NCBI GenBank assembly: GCA_900320055.1
Contig: ONQS01000004.1
Coordinates: 1-64,000, forward strand
Source: an uncultured Prevotellaceae bacterium
GTDB lineage: Bacteria; Bacteroidota; Bacteroidia; Bacteroidales; Muribaculaceae
Direction: 5' to 3'
DNA length: 64,000 nt
The position numbers were made by a program, and so were the translations under genes. The notes under the pieces were generated by a model, which did not search any database, had not been told where the DNA came from, and saw only the letters and a list, made by a program, of their open reading frames with translations. Below are positions 11,876 to 57,295 of the stretch, in pieces; within the stretch, counting starts at the first letter, position 1, and each line of letters starts with the position of its first letter.

Positions 11876-12140
11876 GCTTGAGCATAATGCGGCCTCCCAT
11901 CCGGTTGTCAGGGCTATTATGCCCTGCTTGAAAGGGCACTTCCCGTATCATCTTCCATGCAGGCTCTCCCGCTTGTGAGAGTCTCGCAGGTGGCGGCATG
12001 TATGTGATTAGCGTATTTATATATTATATATAATGTGTGAAGTCGCTGAATACGATGAAAATGTCATTAAAATTCATGGTCTGAATACCTTTTGGATAAA
12101 AAAATCAATAAATATGTTGTAGCATTTGCAGAAAAGTCAT
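11876..12140. other. Intergenic region upstream of argR
   Basis: Holds competing short hairpins after the patatin gene (AGGGC/GCCCT at 11910-11925; GCCCT/AGGGC at 11921-11937), possibly a weak terminator. An A+T-rich stretch follows with the octamer CTGAATAC twice, at 12046 and 12081, exactly 35 nt apart, plus ATTCAT at 12072-12077. These TGAAT/ATTCA half-sites recall ARG boxes, but no full palindrome is present. Confidence 0.4.
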
Positions 12141-12148
12141 TAACTTTG
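12117..12148 (+). promoter_or_regulatory. Promoter of argR
   Basis: TTG at 12117-12119, 21 bases, TAACTTTG at 12141-12148; 33 bases before the ATG at 12182. It rules out in-frame starts before about 12155. Confidence 0.6.
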
Positions 12149-12181
12149 CATGGTAAACCAACTTTTAAGTATGCTGTTCTG

Positions 12182-12757: not shown

Positions 12758-13706
12758 GGTTGGTATCATCGGGTGTGATCACCATAGGGCAGCGGAGTTG
12801 GTGCGCCTGCTCATCAACCATTCCGACGTGGAATTGAGGTGGGTGATGGATGCCGGCAAGGCTGGTCAGCGACTGGATGTCCTCGTTAACGGCATTGTGG
12901 GTGAGTGTGACCTCGTGGTTGAGCCCGAGGGACCGCTTGGCGATGTCGATGTGGTCTACCTGTGCGGTGGCCGAGCCGATGCCGTTAAGCAGATGTCGGA
13001 GATGGTCTTGCCCGATGACCTGCGCGTCATTGACTTGAGCGGGAGTCACAATCGTGATCATGGCCCCGACAAGCCGTGGGCGTATGGAATGAGCGAGATG
13101 CAACGCCGAGTGCTGGTGCACGAAGCGCGCCTGGTGACCGTGCCTGGCAATGCTGCCGCGGCATCGTTGCTGGCAGTCCTGCCGATGGCCCGCAACCTGA
13201 TGCTCAACAGCCCGATAATCCTGCACGTTGCTATCGGCCAGAGCACGCTGCCCCCTGAGGGCCATACGCTCGATGGCATGACGGCCGAACAGTGGGCTCT
13301 GGATCAACAGCAAGAGGTGGAGTATGTCCTGAGACAGTGTCAGAATAGTTTTTGCCAGCCTGTGTCTCTAAGTGTTACGCGGCTTGCTGAGCGCCGCACA
13401 CTGGCTGTCGCTGCACAGTTCAAGTGTGGTGTCGCTGCCGAGATGATTGCGCAACTCTATGAGCAATACTACGATGACCATAACTTTGTCTTTATCGTCA
13501 ATCGTCCACTCGTTACCGCCGACATCGAGAACACCAACAAGTGCTTGATCAGGCTCGACAAGGACGAGTCCAGTGGCCTGCTCACTATCCATGCTGTGAT
13601 GGATGTCCTGCTCAAGGGCTGTGCCGGCAATGCCGTGCATGCGATGAACCTGATGTTTGGCCTGCACGAGCGGGTAGGTCTCACGCTCAAGGGAACTGGG
13701 TGCTAA
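12750..13706 (+). CDS. ArgC-like protein lacking the catalytic cysteine
   Basis: A 318-residue protein with the layout of N-acetyl-gamma-glutamyl-phosphate reductase: an N-terminal Rossmann segment (MIKVGIIGCDHHRAAELVRL, where active enzymes have G-x-G-Y-T/A), DLSGSHN, and the C-terminal CAGNAVHAMNLMFGL, matching the 'KGAAGQAVQNMNLMFG' end. The active-site block, normally N-P-G-C-Y/F, reads VPGNAAAAS with Asn134 where the nucleophilic Cys should be. It therefore cannot work by the known thioester mechanism. Coupled to argR by an 8-base overlap, it may be a regulatory pseudoenzyme, a diverged dehydrogenase or a decaying gene, although the frame is intact. Confidence 0.75.
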   Translation: MIKVGIIGCDHHRAAELVRLLINHSDVELRWVMDAGKAGQRLDVLVNGIVGECDLVVEPEGPLGDVDVVYLCGGRADAVKQMSEMVLPDDLRVIDLSGSHNRDHGPDKPWAYGMSEMQRRVLVHEARLVTVPGNAAAASLLAVLPMARNLMLNSPIILHVAIGQSTLPPEGHTLDGMTAEQWALDQQQEVEYVLRQCQNSFCQPVSLSVTRLAERRTLAVAAQFKCGVAAEMIAQLYEQYYDDHNFVFIVNRPLVTADIENTNKCLIRLDKDESSGLLTIHAVMDVLLKGCAGNAVHAMNLMFGLHERVGLTLKGTGC

Positions 13707-13769
13707 ATGCATTATAGAGAGCCAATTTGTATAATAAACCTATCATAACACAAAAAGTACCATTAAGTC

Positions 13770-14165
13770 ATGTCAGTGAATAAAGTCATTTTGCTGGGCC
13801 GTGTGGGCCGAGACCCAGATGTGCGCTACGTCGCACAGAATCAGCCCGTGGCATCATTTACCCTTGCCACAACAGACCGTGCTTATACCAATGCCAATGG
13901 AGTGCAGGTGCCGGAGCGCACCGAGTGGCACAACATCGTGATGTGGGGCAAGAATGCCGAGGTGGCCGAGCGCTACATCCGCAAGGGCACTCAGATCTAT
14001 CTGGAGGGTCGCCTGCGCACCCGCGCCTGGGAGGATCGCAATCAGGTGAAGCGTTACACCACCGAGATCTATGTTGACACCTTCGAACTGCTGGCCCGCC
14101 CGGTTAATTCAGCACCGGCACAGCAGCCCGCTGCGCCCAACGATGGTGGCAAGGCTCCGTTCTGA
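13770..14165 (+). CDS. ssb: Single-stranded DNA-binding protein
   Basis: A 131-residue SSB with an N-terminal OB fold (MSVNKVILLGRVGRDPDVRY; EWHNIVMWGKNAEVAERYIRKG; IYLEGRLRTRAWEDRNQVKRY). It has a short Gln/Pro/Ala linker and the end NDGGKAPF. It coats ssDNA during replication and repair. The terminal Pro-Phe is kept, but the usual acidic tip (DDDIPF type) that recruits partner proteins is reduced to a single Asp, and there is a Lys just before it. No TAnnTTTG box is seen in the 63 bases upstream, so it may be transcribed with argR and the ArgC-like gene. Confidence 0.92.
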   Translation: MSVNKVILLGRVGRDPDVRYVAQNQPVASFTLATTDRAYTNANGVQVPERTEWHNIVMWGKNAEVAERYIRKGTQIYLEGRLRTRAWEDRNQVKRYTTEIYVDTFELLARPVNSAPAQQPAAPNDGGKAPF

Positions 14166-14209
14166 TTGGCGGTGCACCACTTTTTCTTAGAAATAACTGA
14201 ACGATAAAT

Positions 14210-14250
14210 AACGGGACCCTCATGCCAGAGATGGCGCTGAGGATCCCGTT
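14210..14250. terminator. Hairpin between convergent ssb and manC
   Basis: A 13-bp stem with one mismatch (14210-14222 with 14238-14250) in the 110-base gap between two converging genes. The T run after it is weak on the plus strand (GTGTTTG) and weaker on the minus strand. Confidence 0.6.
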
Positions 14251-14275
14251 GTGTTTGTGCTATGGCGGGTGTGGC

Positions 14276-15355
14276 TTAAAGGAACTTATCGCCAAACTTG
14301 GATTTTACCTCATTGACGTAGAGTTTGATCTTCTGCTCCTCCTCCATGGGGACAATGAGTAGGGCGTCGTCGACATCGGCAACGATGTAGCCCTCAAGGC
14401 CGGATGCCACCACGAGTTTATCACCCTTGACGGCCACAATGTTGTTATGGCTGTTAAACATCAGGGCTTTGCAGTTTTGGGTCACATTGCCGTCCTTGTT
14501 CTTGGGAGAGTGGTCATACAGTGAACGCCATGTGCCCAGGTCGTTCCATCCAAAGTCGACAGTCTCGACATAGACGTTGTCTGCCTTTTCCATCACGGCA
14601 AAGTCGATGCTGATGCTGGGGCAGGCTTCGAAATTGGCGTTGATATATTCCATCTCCCGTTCGGTGCCAAAGTATTCTTGCCCTTGCTCAAACACGGCAT
14701 TGACCTCGGGAGCGCACAGGTTGAGCGCGTTGAGGATGCTGTCGGCGCTCCAGAAAAACAGGCCAGAATTCCAGAAAAACTCTCCCGACTTCAGGAAGAC
14801 GCGGGCCAAGTCCTCGTCGGGCTTCTCGGTGAAGGTTTTGACCAGTGCGAAGTTGCCCTCGGTGGTGTCGCCTATCTGGATGTATCCGTAGCCCGTCTCA
14901 GGTCTGCTGGGTTTGATGCCCATAGTCACCAGCGCGTCGTGAGTCTCGATGAAGTCAAAAGCGTCGATGACGCTCTGCCTGAATTTCTCGACATTCAGAA
15001 TCAGGTGATCGCTAGGAGCGACCATCATTTTGGCGTCGGGGTTGATGGCCTTGATGTGATGGGCTGCCCATGCGATACACGGAGCCGTGTTGCGCCGAGC
15101 GGGTTCGAGCAGGATCTGGTTGTCCTTGATTTCGGGTAGTTGCTCCTTGATGAGCGGCTCATAGTTTTCGTTGGTAATCAGGATGATATTGTCTACGGGG
15201 ACAATGTCTTCCAGACGATCAAAAGCCATCTGCAGCAGGCTGCGTCCGGTGCCAAAGAAGTCGATGAATTGCTTGGGCTTGGCGGTTTTGCTGAAGGGCC
15301 AGAAACGGCTGCCCACACCGCCGCACATAATCACACAATATCGGTTGTTGTCCAT
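14276..15355 (-). CDS. manC: Mannose-1-phosphate guanylyltransferase
   Basis: A 359-residue nucleotidyltransferase converting mannose-1-phosphate and GTP to GDP-mannose, a precursor of GDP-fucose and surface glycans. The signature CGGVGSRFWPFSKTAKPKQF at the N-terminus is the GTP-binding loop with its catalytic Lys. FVEKP-type (FTEKPDEDLA), NSGLFFWSAD and VDFGWNDLGTW follow. The length matches the monofunctional enzyme; the C-terminal cupin isomerase domain of bifunctional proteins is absent. It is transcribed alone, apparently with a leader of about 150 bases from the box at 15517-15524. Confidence 0.92.
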   Translation of the reverse strand: MDNNRYCVIMCGGVGSRFWPFSKTAKPKQFIDFFGTGRSLLQMAFDRLEDIVPVDNIILITNENYEPLIKEQLPEIKDNQILLEPARRNTAPCIAWAAHHIKAINPDAKMMVAPSDHLILNVEKFRQSVIDAFDFIETHDALVTMGIKPSRPETGYGYIQIGDTTEGNFALVKTFTEKPDEDLARVFLKSGEFFWNSGLFFWSADSILNALNLCAPEVNAVFEQGQEYFGTEREMEYINANFEACPSISIDFAVMEKADNVYVETVDFGWNDLGTWRSLYDHSPKNKDGNVTQNCKALMFNSHNNIVAVKGDKLVVASGLEGYIVADVDDALLIVPMEEEQKIKLYVNEVKSKFGDKFL

Positions 15356-35200: not shown

Positions 35201-35224
35201 ATTGTGATAGAAGATGTAGAGATA

Positions 35225-36229
35225 ATGAATAGAAAAGCCTGGATCGACTATATTAAGTTCATCGCGATGGCGCTCGTGGTGCTCTGTCACACGCCGCCTC
35301 GGTATGACAATGCCCATGAGGTTGTCTTGGTCAATGTGGGAGCCCCGGTATTCTTCTTTGTAGCGGGATACCTGTTTGACATCGCCCGGCAACGGGGATT
35401 CTTGGCCTTCCTGCGTCATCGTGCCCGCCAGATACTGGTGCCGTATACCACATTTTTCATTATCTTCTATGCGCTATGGCTGTTGGTGGGACGGCGCATG
35501 GCTGGTCCCGAGGAACAGGCCATCGACGTGTTCACGCCGCTATGGCAGTATGTCCAAGGAACGCCCGACGTGGTGCTGGGACCCTTCTGGTTCCTGGCCG
35601 CTCTGTTCTCGATGCAAGTCATCTACTATCCGATCAGGAAATATCTGGCAGGCATCTGGCCGCTTGTCGTTGCACTGCTGTTAAGTCTGTCGTTGCTGAT
35701 CATGCCCGATATGCCCTGGTTGCGCTATTGGAATCTGGACAAGGCTTGCCTGTATATGCCCATCTATGCCTTAGGCAACTGTTGCCGCCCGTTGGTTGAC
35801 CGCTTCGATTTTGAGCGGCCTGGCCTGTCCTTGCTTTGGGCAGTACTGGCCCTGTTGGGATTGGGCTTTCTGGTGATTGCCCCCTTGTCGATTGACCGTG
35901 CTGTGGCCTATGTCCTCGCTCCAGAGGCTGTTATTCTGGTCCTGCCATTATACACGGCCGTGTGCAAGTGGCTCGAGCGCCATCACGGTGAGAGCCGTGT
36001 GGCTCGCACGGTAGCCGTCACAAGCATCACTTACCTCGCTCTTCAGAATTATCTGATTGGTGTCGTCAAAATATTGGCAGCCAAGTTTGTCGGACCTGCT
36101 GTGCTCGACGGCAGCATAATATTAAAGGTCACCATTGCCATGATGGTTATGGTGACCCTCTATCCCCTTGCCATAGCCGTCGAGCGTTATGCGCCCTGGC
36201 TATTGGGCAAGAAATCGTCGGCTCTGTAA
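35225..36229 (+). CDS. Acyltransferase-3 family membrane protein
   Basis: A 334-residue polytopic protein (about ten hydrophobic spans) of the acyltransferase-3/OafA group. Near the N-terminus are RKAWIDYIKFIAMALVVLCHT, with the conserved His of the family, and GAPVFFFVAGYLF; later GPFWFLAALF. Members O-acylate sugars of LPS, capsule or peptidoglycan at the inner membrane. The ATG at 35225 is preferred over a GTG seven codons earlier. It stands alone after the serS terminator with no clear TAnnTTTG box. Substrate unknown. Confidence 0.85.
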   Translation: MNRKAWIDYIKFIAMALVVLCHTPPRYDNAHEVVLVNVGAPVFFFVAGYLFDIARQRGFLAFLRHRARQILVPYTTFFIIFYALWLLVGRRMAGPEEQAIDVFTPLWQYVQGTPDVVLGPFWFLAALFSMQVIYYPIRKYLAGIWPLVVALLLSLSLLIMPDMPWLRYWNLDKACLYMPIYALGNCCRPLVDRFDFERPGLSLLWAVLALLGLGFLVIAPLSIDRAVAYVLAPEAVILVLPLYTAVCKWLERHHGESRVARTVAVTSITYLALQNYLIGVVKILAAKFVGPAVLDGSIILKVTIAMMVMVTLYPLAIAVERYAPWLLGKKSSAL

Positions 36230-38397: not shown

Positions 38398-38887
38398 ATA
38401 GGCTGCGCCTGAGGAAATGCTCAAATAAATTTTGATAATTTTGGCTTCGCCTCAGCCATTGAAAACAAGTTTTCATGGCAATTGGCTTGCGCAAAATTTG
38501 GCATTCCGCTCGGCTTGCACTACTTTGCCTTGCGGCGAAGATAGGCTGCGCCTCGGAAATGCTCAAATAAATTTGATAATTTTGGCTGCGCCTCAGCCAT
38601 TGAAAACAAGTTTTCATGGCATTTGGCTTGCGCAAAATTTGGCATTCCGCTCGGCTTGCACTACTTTGCCTTGCGGCGAAGATAGGCTGCGCCTCGGAAA
38701 TGCTCAAATAAATTTGATGATTTTGGCTGCGCCTCAGCCATTGAAAACAAGTTTTCATGGCATTTGGCTTGCACAAAATTTGGCATTCCGCTCGGCTTGC
38801 ACTATCTTTGCCTTGCGGCGAAAATAGGCTGCGCCTCGGAAATGCTCAAATAAATTTGGCATTCCGCTCGGCTTGCACTATCTTTGC
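38398..38887 (+). repeat. Promoter-bearing tandem repeat, three full units and one deleted unit
   Basis: Units begin with ATAGGCTGCGCCT at 38398, 38541, 38682 and 38824; the first three are 143, 141 and 142 nt. Each full unit holds a GGCTG/CAGCC hairpin, a GAAAAC/GTTTTC hairpin, and then TTTGGCATTCCGCTCGG leading to a -7 box. The fourth unit lacks about 78 nt, apparently lost between two AAATTTG copies, which brings the start of the unit next to its promoter. Units 1 and 2 read TACTTTG (one base short) where units 3 and 4 read TATCTTTG. The last promoter serves lysS. Frames stay open through the array, but no protein is supported. Confidence 0.9.
38855..38886 (+). promoter_or_regulatory. Promoter of lysS inside the last repeat unit
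   Basis: TTTG at 38855-38858, 20 bases, TATCTTTG at 38879-38886, 39 bases before the lysS ATG. An identical promoter, with the same spacing, lies in unit 3 with its -7 box at 38803-38810. Confidence 0.7.
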
Positions 38888-38925: not shown

Positions 38926-40671
38926 ATGAATGTACTTGAATTAAGCGAACAAGAGATTATCCGCCGCAATAGTTTGGAGCAACTCAAGGCCATGGGCATC
39001 AACCCATATCCCGCCGATGAGTATGTCGTGAATGCCTATAGTGATGACATCCTTGCTAACTTCAGCGATGACGCAGAGCCGCGTCAGGTGAGCATCGCCG
39101 GGCGCATGATGAATCGTCGCATCATGGGTAAGGCTTCCTTCTTTGAACTGCAGGACTCGCGTGGCCGTGTGCAGGTCTATGTGAGCCGAGATGACATTTG
39201 CCCCGATGAGAACAAAGACTTATATAACACGGTATTCAAGAAGTTGCTCGACATGGGCGACTTTGTCGGTGTGCAGGGCTTCGTGTTCCGTACCCAGACG
39301 GGAGAGATCAGTGTGCACGCCCAGTCGATCAAGTTGCTGAGCAAGTCACTCAAGCCCCTGCCTGTGGTGAAAGTGAAGGACGGCGTGACCTATGACGCAT
39401 TTGAGGATCCCGAGTTGCGCTATCGCCAGCGTTATGTGGATCTGGTGGTCAACAAGGGTGTGAAAGAGACTTTCCTGAAGCGTGCCCTAGTAGTGAAAAC
39501 CATGCGCCAAGTGCTTGACGATGCTGGTTATACCGAGGTCGAGACGCCGACGCTGCAGGCTATCGCCGGTGGCGCTACAGCCAGGCCGTTTATCACCCAC
39601 TTCAATGCGCTCAATATCCCGATGTATATGCGCATTGCCACTGAGTTGTACCTCAAACGACTGATCGTGGGCGGTTTTGAGGGTGTGTATGAGATTGGCA
39701 AGAATTTCCGCAACGAGGGCATGGACCGCAACCATAATCCTGAGTTCACCTGCATGGAACTCTATGTGCAGTACAAGGACTACAACTGGATGATGTCGTT
39801 TACCGAGCGGTTGCTCGAAACGATTTGCGTCGCTGTCAATGGCAAACCCGAGACTGAGATCGACGGGCAGGTCATCAGTTTCAAGGCGCCTTATCGTCGT
39901 CTGCCCATCCTGGAGGCCATCAAAGAGAAGACGGGCTACGACCTGGAAGGAAAGAGCGAGGACGAGATCCGCGAGGTGTGCAAGGCGCTCAACATCGAGG
40001 TTGACGATACGATGGGCAAGGGCAAACTGATCGATGAGATTTTTGGCGAGACCTGCGAGGGCACATTTATCCAGCCCACGTTTATCATCGACTATCCTGT
40101 GGAGATGTCACCTCTGACCAAGATGCACCGCAGCAAGCCTGGGCTGACCGAGCGTTTTGAACTGATGGTCAACGGCAAGGAACTGGCCAATGCCTATAGT
40201 GAGTTGAACGACCCCATCGACCAGGAAGAGCGCTTCAAGGAGCAGATGCGCTTGGCCGATAAGGGCGATGACGAGGCGATGATTATCGATCAGGACTTCC
40301 TGCGTGCCCTGCAATATGGTATGCCGCCCACCAGTGGCATCGGCATCGGCATCGATCGCCTGGTGATGCTTATGACCGGCAATAGTTACATTCAGGATGT
40401 GCTGCTCTTCCCGCAGATGCGTCCCGAGAAGGTGCCCGCGCGCGACAAGGCTGAGGCCTTCACCGCTCTGGGCATTCCCGAAGAGTGGGTCGCTCCTATC
40501 CAGAAAGCCGGTCTGCTGACCGTTGCCGCACTGGGTGCCCTGGAGAAGCCCGGCAAGTTGTTCCAAGACCTTCTCGACATCAACAAGAAGTACAAATTAG
40601 GCTATAAGGTGCCTGTCGTTGATGAGGTGAAAAAGTGGGTCGAGGCAGCCGCTGCCGCCACCACCGAGTAA
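38926..40671 (+). CDS. lysS: Lysyl-tRNA synthetase, class II
   Basis: A 581-residue LysRS. An N-terminal OB-fold anticodon domain ([19 protein letters not shown]) precedes the class II core: motif 2 [19 protein letters not shown], motif 3 [15 protein letters not shown]. About 75 residues after the core form a C-terminal extension with a helix-hairpin-helix-like stretch ([21 protein letters not shown]), found in many Bacteroidota LysRS and absent in E. coli. Driven by the promoter in the repeat array. Confidence 0.96.
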
Positions 40672-40956: not shown

Positions 40957-43302
40957 ATGATCAAGAAACATTTCATGTTATTGTTGACGCTTGTAGCGTT
41001 GGCATTTGCTACAGCCAATGCGAGCACTTGGAAGTTGCATAACTACTATATGAATTCCAAGATTCAGAATGTCTACGACACGGGTGATAAGGTCTATTAT
41101 CTGAACAGTGGACGTCTGTTCCAGTTCGACAAGACCACGCTGCAGACGATCGCTTTGACCAAGCAGAATCAACTTTCGGATGGTTTGATCTCCCAGATCT
41201 ATTATGATTGGGAGAACAGGTTGCTCTTTGTGGCCTATGCGACATCCAACATCGACGTCATCGATGCCAACGGCAAGGTGACCAACGTGAGCGGCATCAA
41301 GGATGTGGAAGTACATTTCCGTGACTACACTTACAGTAATGGCATACCTTCGACCTATACCAATAAGATGATCCGCGATATCACCTTCTCTGGTGGCGTA
41401 GCCTATGTGGCCATGGGTTTCGGCTTTATGACCATCGACGAGTCGACCCTGACGGTGACGCGCAGTTATGATGCCGGCGACGGCATCACGATCAACTCTG
41501 TGGCCATCGTAGGTGACCAGATGGTGATGCTGTCTAACCGCAACTGTTTCTATGGTGATCCCAACGACAATGACCCGAGGGCTCATTTCAAGAGAAAGGC
41601 CGGATCATATAGCGGTATGAAGTTGTACCCGATCGACGATCATTCCACTTTCCTGTTTGGAACGCAAAATCTCTATTATTTCGACTTTTCGGCCGGAGAT
41701 CCTTCATTGTCTACGCTGCTCAGTGAGGGTCCCACCTGCGTGCAGAAGACCTCGACGGGTTTCGTCGCCAACTTTACTGGCAAGGCCTTTTATTACACAT
41801 TCGATGCCACCGGCAAGACGGCTACTAAGGTGAACGCGACAGCAACCACTTTTGCCACCAGCAATCCTCTCGGTGACGGCTCTATCTGGATCAACGATGC
41901 CAATGGTCTGTCGATCAAGGGCACATCGACCTATTACAAGATTAATTCGTTGACAACGGACAAGCCCTACTGGCTGAAGTATAATGCCGCAATGAATGTG
42001 CTTTACGCGGCGGTTTCTGGTCCTATTGCCTTGATCAACAACAATTCAACCGGAATTTCCAACGTGATTAACACCTATGACGGCAACATGTGGAAGAACG
42101 TGTCCTATTCGGCTAGTGGCGCAGGCTACGCGTTGGAGTTCAGTCCGCTGGATCCCACGACTTATGTGCGTGCCGGATGGACAACGGGTATCAGCAAGGT
42201 TACCAAAGACGTGAAGAAAGTAACTTACACCAATACAAACTCATTGATTGGCAAGTACAAGCCGACTCCCGCATTTGACAATTATGGCAACATGTGGGTG
42301 GTGACTTCCTATGATAATCCCACCTGCCCTGTGGCTGTGCTCCCTGTCGATAAGTTCAACAAATCGTCTGTGGCTAAGACCGACTGGTTCCAGCCTACTG
42401 GCCTGCTGGCCTTGAATACCGGCTCGATGCAGCGTTCCCGTTTCGTGGTGTCCAAAAAGACCAACTACAAGATCTTTGTCGATGGTGACGTTCCCACCAG
42501 TGCTGGCAATGGACATATCTTCTGCTGGGACAATGGCAATGTGGATCCCACGGTAGATACTTATCGCCTGTCAGACATCATCACGTTTGTCGATCAGAAC
42601 GACCATCAAGTCAAGTGGGTTTATATCAATCACATGGAGGAGGATAAGCAGGGCAATATCTGGGTGTGCCACACTCAAGGCTTGTTCATGTTTGATCCCA
42701 CGGTGGTCTTTGACGAGCAGCCTAGGGCTGTGCGTCCCTATGTGACCAACTTCAACGAGGGTAAGGGCTACCTGTGCGAGGGCTTTTCGGTCTATGACAT
42801 GGGTGTCGATCGCGACGACAACAAGTGGCTGGCCACTGACAATGGCGTCTTCTTCGTTTCGCCCGATGCCAGTGTGGTATATAACCACTTCACCACCGAC
42901 AATAGCGACCTGTCCAGTGATCTGGTTTACAGCATTGAGTGTGACACCATCAACGATCGCGTGTATATCTACACCGACAATGGATTTGCCGAGTATGTTC
43001 CCGAAGGCGATGCCGCTTCGTTGAGTTTTGACAACGTCTACGTGTTCCCCAATCCTGTAGAGCCCGACTTCACTGGCATGATCAAGATCACCGGCCTGAT
43101 GGATAATACCTATGTGACGATTACCGACCGCGAGGGCAACATCGTTAAGCAGGCTGGCCCCGTGATGGGCAGCATGCTGTGGGACGGCAGCGCCGAGGGC
43201 GGTGAGCGTGTGCCCACAGGCATGTACAATGTCTATGCCGCTCAGGGCGCTCAGCCTGTCGTGGACGGGAAGCCGTTGACGACACTGATGATTATCAAGT
43301 GA
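40957..43302 (+). CDS. PorZ-like beta-propeller protein (copy 1)
   Basis: A 781-residue exported protein. A signal peptide (MIKKHFMLLLTLVALAFATANA) is followed by STWKLHNYYMNSKIQNVYDTGDKVYYLNSG, the PorZ-type start. A series of beta-propeller blades follows (NIDVIDANGKV, NMWVVTSYDNP, GNIWVCHTQGLFMFDP, NKWLATDNGVFF). At the C-terminus is a CTD-like sandwich (VYVFPNPVEPDFTGMIKITGLMDNTYVTI... GMYNVYAAQG). In Porphyromonas PorZ belongs to the type IX secretion attachment complex and binds anionic LPS. This copy is more diverged than the one at 46503-48848 but has the same architecture; whether both serve secretion is unknown. Confidence 0.75.
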   Translation: MIKKHFMLLLTLVALAFATANASTWKLHNYYMNSKIQNVYDTGDKVYYLNSGRLFQFDKTTLQTIALTKQNQLSDGLISQIYYDWENRLLFVAYATSNIDVIDANGKVTNVSGIKDVEVHFRDYTYSNGIPSTYTNKMIRDITFSGGVAYVAMGFGFMTIDESTLTVTRSYDAGDGITINSVAIVGDQMVMLSNRNCFYGDPNDNDPRAHFKRKAGSYSGMKLYPIDDHSTFLFGTQNLYYFDFSAGDPSLSTLLSEGPTCVQKTSTGFVANFTGKAFYYTFDATGKTATKVNATATTFATSNPLGDGSIWINDANGLSIKGTSTYYKINSLTTDKPYWLKYNAAMNVLYAAVSGPIALINNNSTGISNVINTYDGNMWKNVSYSASGAGYALEFSPLDPTTYVRAGWTTGISKVTKDVKKVTYTNTNSLIGKYKPTPAFDNYGNMWVVTSYDNPTCPVAVLPVDKFNKSSVAKTDWFQPTGLLALNTGSMQRSRFVVSKKTNYKIFVDGDVPTSAGNGHIFCWDNGNVDPTVDTYRLSDIITFVDQNDHQVKWVYINHMEEDKQGNIWVCHTQGLFMFDPTVVFDEQPRAVRPYVTNFNEGKGYLCEGFSVYDMGVDRDDNKWLATDNGVFFVSPDASVVYNHFTTDNSDLSSDLVYSIECDTINDRVYIYTDNGFAEYVPEGDAASLSFDNVYVFPNPVEPDFTGMIKITGLMDNTYVTITDREGNIVKQAGPVMGSMLWDGSAEGGERVPTGMYNVYAAQGAQPVVDGKPLTTLMIIK

Positions 43303-43350
43303 TAGCATCGTGGCTGGCGGCCTATCCCTGAGTGAGATGGTTTTTCAGTA

Positions 43351-43389
43351 CAAGAGAGGGCGTGCCTGTTGTTGCAGCATGCCCTCTTG
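43351..43389 (+). terminator. Hairpin between the PorZ-like and MBOAT genes
   Basis: A stem with a small bulge (43351-43365 with 43377-43389, core GGGCGTGC/GCATGCCC). No T run follows. It may weaken read-through into the acyltransferase gene. Confidence 0.4.
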
Positions 43390-43407
43390 TTGATATGATG
43401 ACCGTTT

Positions 43408-44853
43408 ATGCTGTTTAATTCGTTCACATTCATGATCTTCTTGCCGGTAGTGTTTTTGCTCTACTGGTTTGTGTTCAGGCGGTTGAGGTGGCAGAATCTG
43501 CTTGTCCTTGTCGCCAGTTATGTGTTCTATGGCTGGTGGGATTGGCGTTTCCTCATCTTGATTGTCATCACGTCGCTGAGCAGTTTCGGCAGCGGTTTGC
43601 TCATTGAGCGATTCGAAGGTCGGCGCGATGCACAGCGCTTGGTCAGCGCTGCCAACATTGTGCTCAATCTGGGCATCCTTGGAGTCTTCAAGTACTATAA
43701 CTTCTTTGTGGACAGTCTGTCTGCATTGTTGCAGATGGTGGGATTGCACATCGACTGGCCCACTGCTCGCATCATCCTGCCTGTAGGCATCAGTTTCTAT
43801 ACCTTCCAGGCGCTGAGTTATTCTATCGACGTCTATGCCCGTCGTATCAAGCCCACGCATGATGCCGTGGCCTTCTTCTCGTTTATCAGTTTCTTTCCTC
43901 AACTGGTGGCAGGCCCCATCGAGCGGGCCACAAGCCTCTTGCCGCAGATGCTGCGTGAGCGCACGTTTGACTATGGCAATGCGGTCGATGGCTTGCGCCA
44001 GATGCTATGGGGATTTTTCAAGAAGTTGATTATCGCCGATGGCTGTGCCGAGATCGTTAATCAAGTATGGAATGGTGTGGGCACGGCCACTGGCTCCATG
44101 CTGCTGGTGTGTTCACTGCTGTTCACGTTTCAGATCTATGCCGATTTTTCGGGCTATAGCGACATCGCCATCGGTTGTGCCAAGTTGTTTGGCATCAGGC
44201 TCACAACCAACTTCAAGGTGCCCTATTTCTCCCGCAACGTGAGGGAGTTTTGGCGCCGTTGGCACATTACGCTCATGAATTGGTTCACGCAGTATGTGTA
44301 TATCCCGTTGGGCGGTAGCCGTGTGGGTCGCAGCCGCACGATTGTCAACACATTGGTCGTGTTTGCCCTGAGCGGTTTATGGCATGGCGCTGACTGGACC
44401 TTTGTGCTGTGGGGACTGTATCACGCATTGCTGTTTGTGCCGCTGATCCTGTGGGGTGCGAAGCGTTATGACCATGCGGTGGCTCATGGGCACATCTTGC
44501 CCTCGTGGCGCGAGTTGCTGAACATGGTGTTGACCTTTGCGCTGGTCAACATGGGTTGGATCTTGTTCCGTGCGCCTGATTTCGGTGCATTCAGCACCTT
44601 CATGTCTCGCTTGTTCTCGCCCTCGCTGTTCTCATTCCATGGGCTGACCATGCCCATGTTGCGCATGCTCATCTGGTGCGCCGTTCTGTTGGTAGCCGAG
44701 TGGATACAGCGTGAGCGCTCTCATGTGTTGCAGATCGATGGTTACCGCTTGCTTTCGGCCAGACCGGCACGCTTGGCGCTATATGCGGTGATCGCCCTGT
44801 TGATTTTCGGCTTTGCCGGTAAGGTGCAAACGTTCATTTATTTCCAGTTCTAA
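43408..44853 (+). CDS. MBOAT-family polysaccharide O-acyltransferase (AlgI type)
   Basis: A 481-residue polytopic membrane protein. LNLGILGVFKYYNFF, ILPVGISFYTFQALSYSIDVY, SFFPQLVAGPIERA and FWRRWHITLMNWFTQYVYIPLGGSR are AlgI/DltB-group signatures. The catalytic His lies in LSGLWHGADWTFVLWG. Such proteins carry acetyl groups across the inner membrane to a periplasmic transferase that modifies a glycan. The SGNH-type partner starts 9 bases downstream. The two sit between the PorZ-like genes, which suggests surface LPS or capsule as substrate (inference). Confidence 0.9.
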   Translation: MLFNSFTFMIFLPVVFLLYWFVFRRLRWQNLLVLVASYVFYGWWDWRFLILIVITSLSSFGSGLLIERFEGRRDAQRLVSAANIVLNLGILGVFKYYNFFVDSLSALLQMVGLHIDWPTARIILPVGISFYTFQALSYSIDVYARRIKPTHDAVAFFSFISFFPQLVAGPIERATSLLPQMLRERTFDYGNAVDGLRQMLWGFFKKLIIADGCAEIVNQVWNGVGTATGSMLLVCSLLFTFQIYADFSGYSDIAIGCAKLFGIRLTTNFKVPYFSRNVREFWRRWHITLMNWFTQYVYIPLGGSRVGRSRTIVNTLVVFALSGLWHGADWTFVLWGLYHALLFVPLILWGAKRYDHAVAHGHILPSWRELLNMVLTFALVNMGWILFRAPDFGAFSTFMSRLFSPSLFSFHGLTMPMLRMLIWCAVLLVAEWIQRERSHVLQIDGYRLLSARPARLALYAVIALLIFGFAGKVQTFIYFQF

Positions 44854-44862
44854 GATTTCACC

Positions 44863-45912
44863 ATGCGCAGGTTCCTTTATCACATATCCTATACGATCTT
44901 ACCCTTGTGGCTGCTCTTGGTGGGCATGGCCGTCTGGCTGTGGGTTACTGGTGACAACTCGGGCGACCTGATGCGATTGGGCTTGATCAACAGCGGCCCG
45001 GAGTATACCGACTCCATCCGCACCCGTCTCTTGCCTGAGGTTTATTATACAGGCATCGACAATGACAGCCTGTTGCGTCAAGACACCTGCGGCGTGCTCG
45101 TCATCGGTGACTCGTTCTCTCATGGCGGTGGAGTGGGCAAGCAGGGCGATTATGTCAACTATCTGGCGCATGAGAGCGGACGCAAGGTGGTTGTATACAC
45201 GCCAAGTGATGCCACCTTGTCTAGTCCGGTTCAGATTGCCTATGATGTGCTCAACTTGGGTTGCATCGACTCTACGTGTGTTCACAATCTGGTCGTGCAG
45301 GAGGTTGAGCGTTATCTGGTGGACAGGCACAGTTCGTTTGTGACTACACACACCTCGATGCCTAGGCCCACCGAACAACCGTCGCAGCCGGCCCAGCCGC
45401 AGGTTCAGCAGCCATCGTCGTCCGGTCCGCTAGAGCGTGTGCGGGACTATGTCTTCTACCATCTGTTGGGCAAGAATCCCATCTATAGCGCCCGTTTGTC
45501 CAAGCCCTTGTTTGGTGGTAGCGAGCCGGATGTGCTCTATTTCTATCATGACGATGTGAAATTGGGCTTTGATGTGACTGATAAGCGCCGCCAGCAGGTG
45601 GTCGACAGTTATCGGGCCCTGATCGATGTAGCGCGCCGCCAAGGGGTGAACCTGATTGTGCTTATTGCAGCCGACAAGTATGACATGTACCAGGAGTTCA
45701 TCACCGATGGCCATTATCCGGCCAAGACCCTCAACGAGGACTTGCAGCAATGGATGGGCTCTGATGCTCAAGGCACCTTTGTCTTTTCCAAGCAGGTGCT
45801 GCTGCCCTACATACGCCGTGGGGTGAGGGACGTGTACCTCTTCAACGATACCCACTGGTCGCCGGCGTCGTCACATCTCATTTCCCAAGAGATTATCAAG
45901 CGGCTCAAGTGA
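44863..45912 (+). CDS. SGNH/AlgJ-AlgX-like acetyltransferase, membrane-anchored
   Basis: A 349-residue protein with an N-terminal membrane anchor (ISYTILPLWLLLVGMAVWLWV) and an extracytoplasmic SGNH-hydrolase-like domain. The nucleophile block is VLVIGDSFSHGGGVG and the C-terminal Asp/His block is FNDTHWSPASSHLIS. The domain layout matches the AlgJ/AlgX partners of AlgI. A Pro/Gln/Ser-rich linker (about residues 166-190) splits the domain. It should transfer acetyl from the MBOAT protein to a periplasmic glycan. Co-transcribed with the preceding gene (9-base gap). Confidence 0.8.
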   Translation: MRRFLYHISYTILPLWLLLVGMAVWLWVTGDNSGDLMRLGLINSGPEYTDSIRTRLLPEVYYTGIDNDSLLRQDTCGVLVIGDSFSHGGGVGKQGDYVNYLAHESGRKVVVYTPSDATLSSPVQIAYDVLNLGCIDSTCVHNLVVQEVERYLVDRHSSFVTTHTSMPRPTEQPSQPAQPQVQQPSSSGPLERVRDYVFYHLLGKNPIYSARLSKPLFGGSEPDVLYFYHDDVKLGFDVTDKRRQQVVDSYRALIDVARRQGVNLIVLIAADKYDMYQEFITDGHYPAKTLNEDLQQWMGSDAQGTFVFSKQVLLPYIRRGVRDVYLFNDTHWSPASSHLISQEIIKRLK

Positions 45913-45952
45913 CCGCTGTGCGATTGATATCAACCCGCTTGTGATATTTGCT

Positions 45953-46411
45953 ATGGACTTTAATTCACCGGAATTCTATACAATAGCCTTTGTGGTCGCT
46001 ATGGCACTGGTTGCGTTGCTGATGGGACGCCGTGAGCATGGTCCCGCCAGCACCCACATAGTGCAGTTGCTCACTGAGCCCGATGAGCGCGAGGACAATG
46101 AAGATACGCTGATGATGCAGCGTGTGGCCGGGGGCAAGGTGCACATCCGGCGCGAGGGCATGGCACTGGCTCCCGACGAGACAATCAATCTCGTATTCAC
46201 CATCCGGGACGATACCTGTGTCATCACCGAGAAGAAAGGTGTCAAGCGCCGTGGCGCTCAGACCATACCGGTTAGGGGTGAAGTGTCGGTCAAGTGCTTG
46301 CGCCCGATCAAGTACCGCATCCGCTACGAGAGTCAAGTTAACAGTACCTGGGCTTCGTTTGTCTATGATGCCGCGTCAAGTGAGCAGACAGCCGTCAGGC
46401 TATCGTACTGA
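45953..46411 (+). CDS. Small single-pass membrane protein of unknown function
   Basis: A 152-residue protein: a short N-terminus, one membrane span (YTIAFVVAMALVALLMG, about residues 9-25), then a soluble domain of about 120 residues with several predicted strands (HIRREGMALAPDETINLVFTI, DDTCVITEKKGVKRRG, YRIRYESQVNSTWASFVYD). No family was recognised. A GTG at 45941 could also start it, but a TATTTG box-like sequence overlaps that codon. It follows the SGNH gene by 40 bases and precedes the second PorZ gene, so it may be part of the same surface-glycan unit. Confidence 0.65.
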   Translation: MDFNSPEFYTIAFVVAMALVALLMGRREHGPASTHIVQLLTEPDEREDNEDTLMMQRVAGGKVHIRREGMALAPDETINLVFTIRDDTCVITEKKGVKRRGAQTIPVRGEVSVKCLRPIKYRIRYESQVNSTWASFVYDAASSEQTAVRLSY

Positions 46412-46502
46412 CGGGTACCACACAATTTACCGCAGGTCTTTACGTTATATTATTACAAGAAGATAAACAGACAGATTTAGATTGATCATATATATGATGA
46501 CG

Positions 46503-48848
46503 ATGAAAAAGATATTGCTACTGTTGCTTTTGATCACGGCGGCCACGCCCATTAGTTTCGAGGCTGACAGCCAAAATGCTGTGGGCGACTGGATGATTCA
46601 TACCTCCTATGTGGGCAGTGCGGTCAAAGCCGTTGCTGAGACACCCGAGCGCGTTTATTACCTGAGTGGCGGCAATCTGTTCGCCCTGGACAAGGAGACC
46701 GAAGAGAATGAGGCACTCAACAGGCTGAACTCGTTGAGCGACATGGGCATCAAAGCGATCTATTACAATAGTGATGAGGACTATCTGGTGGTTGTCTACA
46801 GCAATTCCAACCTTGATGTCATCAGAAAGAACGGCAGTGTCGTGAATTTGCCCGAAATCAAAGATGCGGTGCTCACGACCAGTAAGGCTGTGAACGATGT
46901 CACTTTTGCTCCTGGGCTCATGTATGTGGCAACGGACTTCGGCTACGTCGTCATCGATGACAGCAAGATGGTGGTCAAGGAGTCGCATCTGTTTGGCACT
47001 CGCATGTCATCGGTCGCACAAGTCGGCACTACGCTGATCGCATCAACGGCCGATGCGATGTACTGGGGCGAAACCGGCAAGCATTACGAGCATCTGTCGG
47101 CCATGCACCGCGTGAATATGGACAAATCTAATTGTCGCCTATGGCCCATCGATGACAGCCGCTTCATCTGTGAGTCAGGCTGGACGTCGGTAATCACCAT
47201 CACAGTCAATCATGACGTTGAGATGGAGTCTGGTGAGAGTGGTGACCGCTCGTTCGCGGCGCGCAACATCATCGAGGCTCCGGTGACTGTGGCACAGCAC
47301 GCTCCTGGCGGATGGCTACTCAATGTCCCTTACGAGGGCAAGTGCTACAAAGCCGACATGGATGTTGATAACCTGCAGGTGGTGAGTGACAATGGCGAAA
47401 TCTGTAGCCAGCATCCCAATGGCAGTGACATCCTGTGGGCTGCAGGCGACAAGGGATTGCATCAGCAACACAGCGGCAACTATTACTTGCCTAACGCGTT
47501 GACCTACGCCACGCCCTATTGGATGACCTATAACACGACCCAAGATCTGCTGTATGTGGCAAGCACCGCTGCCAATGGTATCGTCTCTACGGCATCGCCC
47601 ACTGCTGTCAATACCTATGACGGAGTGACCTGGACCGATGTCACGCCCGACGGCGCTCCCATAGACGGCTCGTTTTGGCTTGAATTTGTGCCCGGTGAGC
47701 CCAACACTTATCTGCTGGGAACCTGGCGAGAGGGCTTGCTCAAGGTCGTTGACGGTGAGATCGCCATGGCCTATAATACCGAGAACAGCCCCATGGCTAA
47801 GAAGTGGTCGATGCACCCCATCACGAGCATTGACCGCAATGGTAACCTGTGGGTGGTACAGTCCTATGAGAATCCCGAACACCCTGTAATGGTGCTCCCC
47901 GCTGCCAAGGTAAAGCAAAGTCAAGTCACAGCCAGTGACTGGATCACACCTGAGATTGAGGGCACCAATACGGGTCACACGATGCGTGGTCTCTTGCTCT
48001 CGACTCGCAACAGCAATTATGACATCAAGTTGTTTACCGATGGCGACTTCAAGATGCCTCTGGTGATGTGGAACAGTAACGGTGAGATTTCGTCACGTCC
48101 GCCTCGGGTGTCATTCGACAAGTTTAACGACCAGGATGGTATGGCCTTCTCGTGGACCAATATCACTTGCCTGACCGAGGACCTCAATGGCATGGTCTGG
48201 ATGGGCAATAGTGAGGGCGTATGCTATTTCAACCCCGCTCAAGCCTTTGCGGGTGGCAGCGACTTCACGGTCATGCGACCCAAGGTGCCGCGCAACGACG
48301 GAACCGGCATGGCCGACCGTCTGATGGATGGTATTCAGGTCAATAGCGTGGCTGTCGACGGGGCTAACCGCAAGTGGATTGCCACGCAGTCGTCGGGATT
48401 GTTCCTGGTCAGCCCCAACGGTGATGAGATTATCAAGAAATTCAATACGACCAACAGCCCTCTGGCTTCAAACACGGTCTATACCGTGTGCTGCAATCCC
48501 AACAGCAACTCCGTCTATGTGACCACACCTGCAGGCCTGTATGAGTACTTTAGCGACTCCAGCCCTGCCGAGCCCACCTATGACAACGTGTTTGCTTATC
48601 CCAACCCGGTGCGTCCCGAGTATGGCGGCAGTGTGACTATCAAGGGTCTGATGGACAATTCTCTGGTCAAGATCACCGATGCCAGCGGCAATGTCCTGGC
48701 TCAACTCAAGTCGACAGGCGGTATGGTGACGTGGGACTGCTGCGACCAGTATGGCAACGCCGTCAAGTCGGGCGTTTACCTTGTGCTGTGCTCTCAAGCC
48801 AGTGGAAGCGGTAAGGCTGCCGTGACCAAGATTGCAGTCATCCGCTGA
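46503..48848 (+). CDS. porZ: PorZ-type type IX secretion protein (copy 2, canonical)
   Basis: A 781-residue exported beta-propeller protein. The mature start NAVGDWMIHTSYVGSAVKAV matches the 'xGDWRxHLSY' opening of PorZ. Blades with NLDVIRKNGSVVNLP, NLWVVQSYENPEHPV, GMVWMGNSEGVCYFNP and NRKWIATQSSGLFLVSP follow. The C-terminal domain reads VFAYPNPVRPEYGGSVTIKGLMDNSLVKITDASGN. PorZ in Porphyromonas is surface-exposed, keeps its CTD and delivers anionic LPS to the PorU sortase. Starts at 46482, 46494 and 46497 are also in frame; 46503 gives the cleanest signal peptide. A palindrome ATCATATATATGAT (46485-46498) overlaps these starts. Confidence 0.82.
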   Translation: MKKILLLLLLITAATPISFEADSQNAVGDWMIHTSYVGSAVKAVAETPERVYYLSGGNLFALDKETEENEALNRLNSLSDMGIKAIYYNSDEDYLVVVYSNSNLDVIRKNGSVVNLPEIKDAVLTTSKAVNDVTFAPGLMYVATDFGYVVIDDSKMVVKESHLFGTRMSSVAQVGTTLIASTADAMYWGETGKHYEHLSAMHRVNMDKSNCRLWPIDDSRFICESGWTSVITITVNHDVEMESGESGDRSFAARNIIEAPVTVAQHAPGGWLLNVPYEGKCYKADMDVDNLQVVSDNGEICSQHPNGSDILWAAGDKGLHQQHSGNYYLPNALTYATPYWMTYNTTQDLLYVASTAANGIVSTASPTAVNTYDGVTWTDVTPDGAPIDGSFWLEFVPGEPNTYLLGTWREGLLKVVDGEIAMAYNTENSPMAKKWSMHPITSIDRNGNLWVVQSYENPEHPVMVLPAAKVKQSQVTASDWITPEIEGTNTGHTMRGLLLSTRNSNYDIKLFTDGDFKMPLVMWNSNGEISSRPPRVSFDKFNDQDGMAFSWTNITCLTEDLNGMVWMGNSEGVCYFNPAQAFAGGSDFTVMRPKVPRNDGTGMADRLMDGIQVNSVAVDGANRKWIATQSSGLFLVSPNGDEIIKKFNTTNSPLASNTVYTVCCNPNSNSVYVTTPAGLYEYFSDSSPAEPTYDNVFAYPNPVRPEYGGSVTIKGLMDNSLVKITDASGNVLAQLKSTGGMVTWDCCDQYGNAVKSGVYLVLCSQASGSGKAAVTKIAVIR

Positions 48849-48908
48849 CGATGTCGGCTGAAAGCCAATTATTGAGTATGTCGTTTTTAAAATAACTTGA
48901 ATGGAAAA

Positions 48909-49400
48909 ATGAAAAACCTAACTTTTGCGTCAATGATTTTGGGGCTTGTGTTGATGTTCAATGCATGTGGAACTGGCAACGCGTTGCGACAAGCCGAACA
49001 GCAAGCCCAAGTGGCTGCGCAGGTCGAGCAGGCCCTCGACACCCGCCACTTTACTATCGCAATCAACTGGATGAAACCGCTGGGAGGCATGCCCCGGCAC
49101 GTGACATCCAACTATGAGTTGAAAATCAATGGGGACGAGGTCGACAGTTACCTGCCCTATGCAGGCGAGGCCTATCGCTTGCCCTACGGCGGAGGCAAGG
49201 GACTGAACTTCAAGGGCAATTTACAGGGCTACTCGGTCACTCAGACAACCAGCAACCGCTACGTCGTCGAGTTTGACGTGATCAACGAAGAGGACGCCTA
49301 TCATTATCGCATCGATATGTTTACCAACGGCAAAGCAATCATCGACGTGATTGCTCGTGACAGGGATGCGATTTCGTTTGATGGCGAGTTGCTGCTCTGA
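48909..49400 (+). CDS. DUF4251 lipoprotein (copy 1)
   Basis: A 163-residue lipoprotein (signal ending LMFNAC). The mature part has RHFTIAINWMKPLGG, then DEVDSYLPYAGEAY, GLNFKGNLQGYSV and NGKAIIDVIARDRDAISFDGEL, the order of the Bacteroidota DUF4251 family, whose role is unknown. The preceding TTG at 48897 is less likely than the ATG. It lies 60 bases after porZ and 108 before its paralog. Confidence 0.8.
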   Translation: MKNLTFASMILGLVLMFNACGTGNALRQAEQQAQVAAQVEQALDTRHFTIAINWMKPLGGMPRHVTSNYELKINGDEVDSYLPYAGEAYRLPYGGGKGLNFKGNLQGYSVTQTTSNRYVVEFDVINEEDAYHYRIDMFTNGKAIIDVIARDRDAISFDGELLL

Positions 49401-49508: not shown

Positions 49509-50009
49509 ATGAGGAAGGTTTTACTATTATTATCATCATTACTAATGGTAGTGATTCTAGCCGCTTGTGGATCAGGTAAAAATGTTGTGGATCCGCAACG
49601 CGTCGAGGCTGTCAAGACGCTGCTCGAATCACGCCAGTATGTGATCATGGTAGGGTCGATGCGGCCTTTGTCGGCTCCCACCATGAGCGTGAGCCAGGGT
49701 CAGAAGATGATTTTGCGTGACGGTACTGTGACGTGCTACTTGCCCTATGCAGGTTCTGGCCAGAATGTGGGTTACGGCGCTAGCGGGTATAAGGCTCTTA
49801 ATTTCTCGAGCGCTATTCTTGATTACAAGGTAACCTACCCCAAGGAGGACCGTGCCCAGATCACGTTCAGGGTCGATAATGGCGACGATAACTACCGGTT
49901 CCATGTCGAGGTGTTTATGAATGGCAAGGCAACCATCGATGTTGATCCGCGTGGCCGGGACGCCATTTCCTACAGTGGCATGCTGCATGGCCTGGACATC
50001 CTCTATTGA
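49509..50009 (+). CDS. DUF4251 lipoprotein (copy 2)
   Basis: A 166-residue paralog of the preceding gene. Lipobox LAAC at residues 17-20; then SRQYVIMVGSMRPLSAP, DGTVTCYLPYAGSGQNVGYGASGYKALNF, and NGKATIDVDPRGRDAISYSGML. The two share the CYLPYAG and NGKA-IDV blocks but differ elsewhere, so the duplication is old. It ends before a strong bidirectional terminator. Confidence 0.82.
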   Translation: MRKVLLLLSSLLMVVILAACGSGKNVVDPQRVEAVKTLLESRQYVIMVGSMRPLSAPTMSVSQGQKMILRDGTVTCYLPYAGSGQNVGYGASGYKALNFSSAILDYKVTYPKEDRAQITFRVDNGDDNYRFHVEVFMNGKATIDVDPRGRDAISYSGMLHGLDILY

Positions 50010-56164: not shown

Positions 56165-57295
56165 TCATTCCTTGATCTCGTGGTGCAGCAGGCCTCCTGC
56201 CGCACATGCGCTTTTAACTTCTTGGTAAAGGTCTTGGCATCGCTGCTCCGGCATGTTGATGTGAACGCCGACTGACACCATATCCTCGAGTGTGGGATTC
56301 CCCGTGCCGTTAACTGATGTGGCATGTTCACCGTTGTAGCCCTCGGCACACCATGTCAGGTCATAGGCTGGGGCCAGATGCCACGAGTATTGCTTTGCCG
56401 CATCTTGGGTGATGATGAAACTGAAATTCTTGCAATGGTCGTCTTTGTTATCCGTAAGATAATTGAATACCATCCGTCTGAACATTTGTTCCACATCGGC
56501 CTCATTGTGCGTGAGATAGCCAGTGAGGGCGAGCAGGTTGCTGTAGTCGAGCAGTGGGGTCGAGAGCGACACGTTGAGCAATGCGCCTGCGGTGGCTGTG
56601 TGAATCCTGCTGCCGTTGCTGTCAATATCAAAACGCCTGGATGCGAAGTAACGGTTGTCCATCAACTTAAAGTTGGGCACGTTGATGCCGCATTGCTTTG
56701 CCACCTCGTTATAGCGGTATTCCTGAATGCCCATGTCGGTGGGGTCGTAGGTGTGGCGGAACTTGACCAGCCAGTGCCCATCACTGTCATGAATGATGGC
56801 TTTGGGTCGCGCGCCACCACTGTTGCCGCTCTTGAACAGTAATATTCCCGCATCGGTGTCCTGCTGCTCGCTGAGCACTTCGAGCGCTTTTTCTTGCAGG
56901 GTGTCGAGGTCGAGGTCATCTGAGCCCCGATCAATGTGGTGATGTGGGTGATAAGTCAATGCTCCCATGCCGGCAGTGCCCACCATGCTCAACCTGTCAA
57001 GCGAGGATAGGTCGGTATCCTTAATTCCAACCCTTTGCAGAGCCTTGTGCAAGAGATAGCGGCCATAACCGTCAGGCAGACTGTCCTCAAAGATGCCGAA
57101 ATTGCCAAAAAAAGGTTGCGGTTTGGCGACGAAAACCCCTTGTTGCAATGGCAATTCCAGCGGCGAAATGCTGAAACCGTCAAGTAACCAAGCCTTATCA
57201 TACTCGAATGCACAAAGCCTGCCGTCTGGCGTCAAGGATAGGATTCCCACCGTCAGGTTATGATACTTGACTGTCAATTGCTCAACTTTTGTCAT
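56165..57295 (-). CDS. hipA: HipA-family serine/threonine kinase toxin
   Basis: A 376-residue HipA-like kinase. The N-terminal part has SPLELPLQQGVF, FGIFEDSLPDGYGRYLLHKAL and the loop MVGTAGMGALTY. GNSGGARPKAIIHDSDGHWLVKF holds the P-loop-like and ATP lysine region. The catalytic segment is YLTDNKDDHCKNFSFI (the N-x-DDH-x-KN form), and HLAPAYDLTWC carries the metal-binding DLT. E. coli HipA phosphorylates glutamyl-tRNA synthetase to give dormancy; this target is not established here. It overlaps hipB by 4 bases (ATGA). A full-length single polypeptide, not the split HipT/HipS form. Confidence 0.88.
   Translation of the reverse strand: MTKVEQLTVKYHNLTVGILSLTPDGRLCAFEYDKAWLLDGFSISPLELPLQQGVFVAKPQPFFGNFGIFEDSLPDGYGRYLLHKALQRVGIKDTDLSSLDRLSMVGTAGMGALTYHPHHHIDRGSDDLDLDTLQEKALEVLSEQQDTDAGILLFKSGNSGGARPKAIIHDSDGHWLVKFRHTYDPTDMGIQEYRYNEVAKQCGINVPNFKLMDNRYFASRRFDIDSNGSRIHTATAGALLNVSLSTPLLDYSNLLALTGYLTHNEADVEQMFRRMVFNYLTDNKDDHCKNFSFIITQDAAKQYSWHLAPAYDLTWCAEGYNGEHATSVNGTGNPTLEDMVSVGVHINMPEQRCQDLYQEVKSACAAGGLLHHEIKE

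Follow-up and report, generated by a model that had tools for sequence, protein, structure and literature searches.

An MBOAT-SGNH acyltransferase pair kept beside a PorZ paralog: a candidate O-acylation step in a proposed duplicated type IX attachment module

What is a pair of apparent O-acyltransferase genes doing between two genes for PorZ, a protein of the type IX secretion system (T9SS)? The question is raised by a stretch of 64,000 nucleotides (positions 1 to 64,000 of contig ONQS01000004.1, assembly GCA_900320055.1; hereafter “the window”) from an uncultured member of the Bacteroidales. According to PMC8545088, the PorZ of Porphyromonas gingivalis binds anionic lipopolysaccharide (A-LPS) and delivers it to the sortase PorU; PMC7468200 and PMC11969387 describe linking sugars that differ between species. 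An earlier note on this DNA had suggested that the acyltransferase pair could acetylate the glycan that PorZ reads and that two PorZ copies could serve two glycan forms. The five genes concerned are consecutive and all lie on the plus strand, just as that note had placed them, with gaps of 105, 9 (from the MBOAT to the SGNH gene), about 30-40 and about 70-90 bases, the last two depending on the start codons:

40957..43302, + strand: PorZ1, a PorZ paralog of 781 amino acids (aa) (NF052228, 315.6 bits; PF21544, 74.7 bits; PDB 5m11, 7.6e-39; signal peptide by eye)
43408..44853, + strand: MBOAT, a membrane O-acyltransferase (PF03062, 90.2 bits against a cut-off of 27; WHG histidine motif; C-terminal FIYFQF; matches DltB structures 8jem/6bug)
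44863..45912, + strand: SGNH, the ALGX-type predicted periplasmic acyltransferase partner (PF16822 ALGX, 44.2 bits against a cut-off of 26.5; AlgJ 4o8v, 4.5e-5; N-terminal membrane anchor by eye)
45953..46411, + strand: sm, a small membrane protein of no known family (reading frame 45941-46411; the alignment favours a start at ATG 45953)
46482..48848, + strand: PorZ2, the canonical PorZ, 788 aa (NF052228, 436.7 bits; PDB 5m11, 4.4e-57; likely start ATG 46494 or 46503)

Both PorZ proteins score above the curated cut-off (260 bits) of NF052228 (T9SS_PorZ), an NCBIfam equivalog model, with PorZ1 covering positions 1-742 of 757 and PorZ2 positions 1-757, and both match the solved chain 5m11, which is named as PorZ in PMC10202324. 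The description “PorZ-like” thus understated the first gene. By analogy with 5m11, PorZ1 is expected to consist of two propellers and a C-terminal domain (CTD).

The arrangement proved to be shared well beyond this genome. A protein search returned 12 loci (L034-L045) in 11 genomes, all metagenome-assembled genomes of uncultured Bacteroidales: one is named from roe deer abomasum, several have RUG isolate names, which we take to denote rumen, and four loci (L034, L035, L037 and L045) belong, by identical coordinates, to genomes of our genus survey (G205, G149, G193 and G184). In that survey of 101 genomes of the genus, an MBOAT of window type (at least 70% identity) was found in 26 (70-83% identity, the window itself aside), the next matches lying at 62% identity or less among the matches listed. 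All 26 carriers keep the order PorZ1-MBOAT-SGNH-sm, so that the order is neither peculiar to one strain nor a product of chance, and none has a window-type MBOAT apart from PorZ1. PorZ2 follows sm in 18 of the carriers (with an extra gene intervening in G185). In the other eight, sm is followed either by at least 5 kb of other sequence (six genomes) or by a contig end within 0.8 kb (two), and the PorZ2 loci of all eight were found elsewhere (L140, L176-L182), with no sm within 500 bp of PorZ there. On the other flank, upstream of lysS, 14 of the 21 loci in view (of 26) have acyl3 or dapF and seven have something else. Thus the block breaks on both sides and nowhere inside: the conserved unit is PorZ1-MBOAT-SGNH-sm, the pair travels with PorZ1, and the bracket of two PorZ genes around the pair, which the earlier note had treated as the unit, is not retained.

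Our preferred reading, put forward tentatively, is that the block belongs to a T9SS attachment module that has been duplicated, and that its MBOAT-SGNH pair O-acylates the glycan presented by PorZ1. The attachment machinery would be doubled: PorU1 and PorZ2 would form the canonical set, and PorU2 and PorZ1 a second set that has expanded. The MBOAT would take an acyl group, most likely acetyl from acetyl-CoA, onto the tyrosine of its C-terminal FIYFQF and hand it on, in the periplasm, to its membrane-anchored SGNH partner, which would O-acylate a periplasmic glycan, most likely the LPS-type glycan later bound by PorZ1 at the surface; PorZ1 would then present this glycan to a PorU sortase, probably PorU2. 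Given that the P. gingivalis PorZ delivers A-LPS to PorU and that linking sugars vary between species, it is plausible, though unproved, that PorZ1 reads an O-acylated glycan. We infer transcription as an operon, acetyl as the group, an LPS-type glycan as acceptor, the pairing of PorZ1 with PorU2 and a role for sm; the functional link drawn in the earlier note, acetylation of the glycan that PorZ reads, we likewise infer.

Is the pair equipped for such a reaction? It looks catalytically intact, judging by the motifs in alignments of 33 MBOAT rows (26 genus orthologs and seven relatives) and 30 SGNH rows (26 from the PorZ1 block and four relatives, the partners of the PorU-side MBOATs described below being left out). 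The WH histidine is kept in 33/33 MBOAT rows and WHG in 32/33 (the G214 protein reads WHAPDW), and all 33, the window protein included, end in FIYFQF. Every one of the 30 SGNH rows carries GDSF towards its N-terminus and DTHW close to its C-terminus; in the window protein GDSFS starts at residue 82 and DTHW at residue 329. The window MBOAT has the domain, the WHG and the C-terminal FXYXXF of the MBOATs of such pairs, and its partner has the ALGX domain above cut-off together with the GDS and D-x-H motifs of SGNH/ALGX partners. In AlgX and AlgJ proper Asp-His comes before Ser, an order not shared by the window SGNH, with its Ser motif N-terminal and DTHW C-terminal; DltD has Ser first and His last, as here.

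The MBOAT superfamily also includes protein acyltransferases, and the target of the pair might be a protein (cargo, PorZ1 itself or its CTD) instead of a glycan, which we regard as very improbable. PMC12148441 describes the SGNH-partnered bacterial MBOATs with a C-terminal FXYXXF as polymer-modifying, with many different polymers as acceptors and FXYXXF as the acyl shuttle of the pair; the PatA tyrosine receives its acetyl group from acetyl-CoA, and PatB is able to use the acetyl carried by a peptide of this kind.

A different donor is proposed in another alternative, Dlt-like D-alanylation, in which an amino acid would be transferred, building the amine of the linking sugar that PorU joins to cargo. 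The solved relatives found for the MBOAT are indeed DltB (8jem, 6bug), its only NCBIfam match is TIGR04091 DltB, below cut-off (164 of 375 bits), and the known linking sugars carry Ser, Gly or Ala according to PMC7468200 and PMC11969387. However, none of 12 genomes has a DltA (the D-alanyl carrier ligase) above cut-off, the best weaker match reaching 291 of 560 bits in frames of 2400 aa; because of this an acyl-CoA donor is favoured and a Dlt-type D-alanyl donor is unlikely. Further, the shuttle motif is on the MBOAT itself, as in acyl-CoA users, whereas Dlt uses DltX (PMC12148441), and the amino acids of known linking sugars are N-linked, with VimA proposed to transfer them in P. gingivalis. 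Taken as a whole, we consider D-alanylation of the linking sugar highly improbable.

The sortase PorU is multiplied as well, something the author of the earlier note had no means of seeing. With the model NF033707 (curated cut-off 420 bits), the window's own genome has two PorU above cut-off, at 947.2 and 713.9 bits (positions 11179-14469 and 18388-21699 of contig C36), and the full-length PorU2 rows of relatives listed also exceed it. Among the 11 relatives (those carrying L034-L045), 10 resemble the window's own genome in having PorU1 clustered with one to four PorU2 copies, with rex and a FAA-hydrolase gene between them; the tandem is split over contigs in G127, and in G120 the contig ends at PorU1. 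At least two PorU matches (E 1e-60) occur in 98 of the 101 genus genomes and at least two PorZ matches (E 1e-30) in 96, counts in which the several matches may be pieces of a single gene. The midpoint root separates PorU1 from PorU2 (37 and 57 rows). Of 94 full-length PorU from the two classes, 93 retain the catalytic His and Cys, identified by aligning with PorU 6za2 (H655 and C688 of that chain, which we take to be H657 and C690 of P. gingivalis). Canonical PorV is not multiplied: 11 of 12 genomes have a single strong match to it (390-402 bits), and a weaker member of the PorV family above cut-off (176-194 bits) likewise occurs once in 11 of 12.

Several further features were seen around the PorU genes. 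The sole exception among the 94 PorU is a PorU1-type gene of G217 (L198, 5799-9230), located between sbcC and a DUF4251 gene at the PorZ locus, in which R and A replace both catalytic residues. Between PorU1 and PorU2 of the window's own genome (L067, 9492-11803), on the other strand, are a GT2 glycosyltransferase and a 468-aa protein without a family; relatives of both recur in L130 (G123), again between PorU genes, and in L155 (G186), next to lysS. Directly upstream of PorU1 (L067, 5325-5951), in relatives too, is a 4'-phosphopantetheinyl transferase.

The PorU2 and PorZ1 copies could be due simply to gene dosage or surface antigenic variation, with the same glycan and the same cargo for all copies. 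Several PorZ1 copies of one genome are mutual nearest relatives in the tree, and a genome has between 0 and 6 PorU matches and between 1 and 6 PorZ matches among those listed. We nevertheless find this explanation rather unlikely: PorU1 and PorU2 are split at the midpoint root, PorZ2 is single while PorZ1 is multiplied in the window's subclade, and PorU and PorZ are both multicopy in most genomes. In support of our preferred reading, the numbers of PorU and PorZ matches are correlated (Spearman 0.49 in 101 genomes, 0.54 in the 48 of at least 90% completeness, 0.66 in the 37 of the PorZ2 tree described below). Outside the genus, in a sample of the family, PorZ is matched in 119/119 genomes (115 above cut-off) and PorU in 118/119, and second copies of both occur in several other genera among the matches listed; G005 and G046, from other genera, have two PorU and one PorZ among the matches listed, so the two are not strictly coupled.

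The duplicated attachment module also admits an extended form, “multi-channel” anchoring, in which the PorU1-PorZ2 set and one or more PorU2-PorZ1 sets, working in parallel, would handle different cargo on chemically different glycolipid anchors and the pair would write an O-acyl mark read by PorZ1. We regard this fuller version as unlikely. A PorZ1 sequence type that tracks the MBOAT-SGNH pair beyond common descent was also considered and was unsupported (AU (approximately unbiased) test, p 0.157).

The surroundings of the block bear on which polymer might be acylated. Its neighbours on either side are as follows:

38926..40671, + strand: lysS (PF00152, 301.9 bits), the constant upstream neighbour of the PorZ block; housekeeping, probably outside the function
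48897..49400, + strand: first DUF4251 protein (PF14059, 124 bits; lipoprotein-like signal by eye), a frequent downstream neighbour in relatives
49509..50009, + strand: second DUF4251 protein (PF14059, 84.6 bits; lipoprotein-like signal by eye), a neighbour in relatives

Two genes on the opposite strand after the DUF4251 genes are presumably sbcC and sbcD. Further upstream, at 19-33 kb, is a cell-wall and division cluster (by Pfam, Mur ligases, MraY, FtsW/RodA type, MurG type, FtsA and FtsZ), followed at 35204-36229 by an AT3-type acyltransferase (PF01757) that often adjoins lysS in relatives. The base composition of the pair (GC 0.54) is inside the range of the neighbouring genes (0.49-0.55).

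The strongest rival is that the pair, though a working O-acetylation system, modifies some other envelope polymer (peptidoglycan, capsule or O-chain in general), stands next to PorZ1 through shared history and plays no part in anchoring. We consider this a serious possibility, if on balance a doubtful one. MBOAT-SGNH pairs serve many polymers according to PMC12148441, the window's own genome has four MBOAT matches, including a second pair beside two C10 peptidases, the cell-wall cluster and the separate AT3 acyltransferase lie upstream, and lysS is as tightly tied to the block as the pair is. On the other side, the PorZ1-MBOAT junction is unbroken in 26 genomes while the outer junctions break, and six genomes have a related MBOAT either next to PorZ, in a different position (three), or near PorU (three).

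Those related MBOATs come from a set of 160 further genus matches at E 1e-100 or below besides the orthologs (186 in all). Among the matches listed, an MBOAT directly follows PorZ, at a position different from that in the window, in G200, G187 and G165 (where it has an internal stop), and one lies within 3 kb of PorU in G040, G168 and G159; uniform placement would lead us to expect about 0.7 (160 × 12 kb of flanking sequence / 2.8 Mb) where six were seen. By our judgement the six represent about four lineages, and they are suggestive only. The window gene and the PorZ- and PorU-side MBOATs (G165 left out) share a clade (37 of the tree's 60 rows; support 0.93) that also includes members lacking any PorZ or PorU in view. 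Those on the PorU side have partners that match no Pfam family above cut-off and look SGNH-like by motif only. Two further pairs were noted: the second one of the window's own genome (L226, 4193-6685 of contig C35; 59% and 32% identical to the window pair), whose two C10 peptidases carry Spi inhibitor domains, and one in G191 (L228, 3590-6061) that adjoins sbcD and is possibly near a PorZ locus across a contig break.

A number of observations weigh against O-acylation of a PorZ1 glycan within a duplicated module. Since lysS is tied to the block as tightly as the MBOAT (present wherever in view, 24 of 26), synteny alone is not proof of function. The earlier note had asked whether the pair usually lies elsewhere while PorZ stays alone; no window-type MBOAT was found away from PorZ1, but 75 of the 101 genus genomes have none at all. 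Seventy of the 96 genomes with at least two PorZ matches are among those lacking it. PorZ duplication is therefore broader than the pair, and acetylated and unacetylated glycan forms alone cannot account for it. Peptidoglycan is a possible acceptor because of the dcw cell-wall cluster upstream. The covariation of PorU and PorZ is not significant on independent pairs (3.4 of 5 change the same way and 0.3 the opposite way; median p 0.25), and G125, the genome of L040, has three PorU2 with one PorZ1.

Descent also limits what the 26 carriers can tell us: they trace back to a single origin or to two, accompanied by loss or gain, and do not count as 26 independent events. In the tree of PorZ2, built from 37 genomes (all but one of the 26 carriers plus 12 genomes of the same subclade without the pair, further members of which may exist beyond those fetched), the presence of the pair needs two changes; forcing the carriers into one clade gives a borderline AU p of 0.049, for a group chosen after seeing the tree. 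The 12 genomes without the pair form two groups, of seven and five. Absence of the pair accompanies more PorZ and PorU copies (Mann-Whitney, 26 carriers against these 12, p 1e-4 and 1e-3), but this association is weak, with only two independent contrasts. Outside both the tree and that test is G145, with a plain lysS-PorZ1-sm-PorZ2 order, the pair absent, and two PorZ and two PorU among the matches listed.

The small membrane protein sm has one N-terminal hydrophobic segment by eye and a conserved EKKG motif in the alignment. The window protein matches no family in Pfam or NCBIfam; against Pfam no family matched more than one of 12 members (best E 0.019), and against solved structures the best E was 0.00088, with no single stretch passing alone. 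Of the 68 genus genomes with a PorZ locus fetched, 54 have sm no more than 500 bp away from a PorZ, and nine of the remaining 14 carry the pair, with sm after SGNH; in other genera it is beside PorZ in 3 of 10 genomes (G028, G042 and G048). This small membrane protein, as yet uncharacterised, is thus a companion of PorZ in most of the examined genomes of the genus.

All of the named parts except sm belong, by sequence, to known families, and the locus can be compared with three known systems. The PorZ and PorU of P. gingivalis (5m11, 6za2) are of the same families as those here, by curated models and matches to solved structures, and the catalytic His and Cys of PorU are kept; we take them to be single genes in that species, whereas here there are two classes each of PorZ and PorU, some tandem arrays and an acyltransferase pair in the PorZ1 block. 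PatA/PatB and AlgI/AlgJ-AlgX resemble the window pair in having an MBOAT with WHG and a C-terminal FXYXXF and a membrane-anchored SGNH partner, but the context here is PorZ and not alginate genes. DltB/DltD, the teichoic acid D-alanylation system, supplies the structural matches of the MBOAT and differs in having its shuttle motif on DltX and not fused to the MBOAT, and in the DltA that none of the 12 genomes has above cut-off. A literature search, in which subscription papers were thinly covered, listed nothing whose title concerns PorZ together with an MBOAT-SGNH pair, or multiple copies of PorU and PorZ.

Current knowledge of type IX anchoring was gained with a single sortase and a single glycan presenter. 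Where a genus has several of each, with a glycan-acylating pair tied to one class of presenter, it would become possible to test both the reading of glycan chemistry by PorZ and the use of multiple anchors per cell; if the module is truly duplicated as we propose, these cells may anchor their surface proteins to more than one glycolipid form.

Scans for promoter-like sites (13, with 11.3 expected from shuffles) and terminator-like sites (4, with 9.0 expected) did no better than chance. Between dapF and lysS (38428-38850), a unit of 141 bp is repeated three times in tandem (100, 98 and 74% identity to the reference copy), and a HipA-family gene (PF07804 and PF13657) is located at 56165-57295 on the minus strand.

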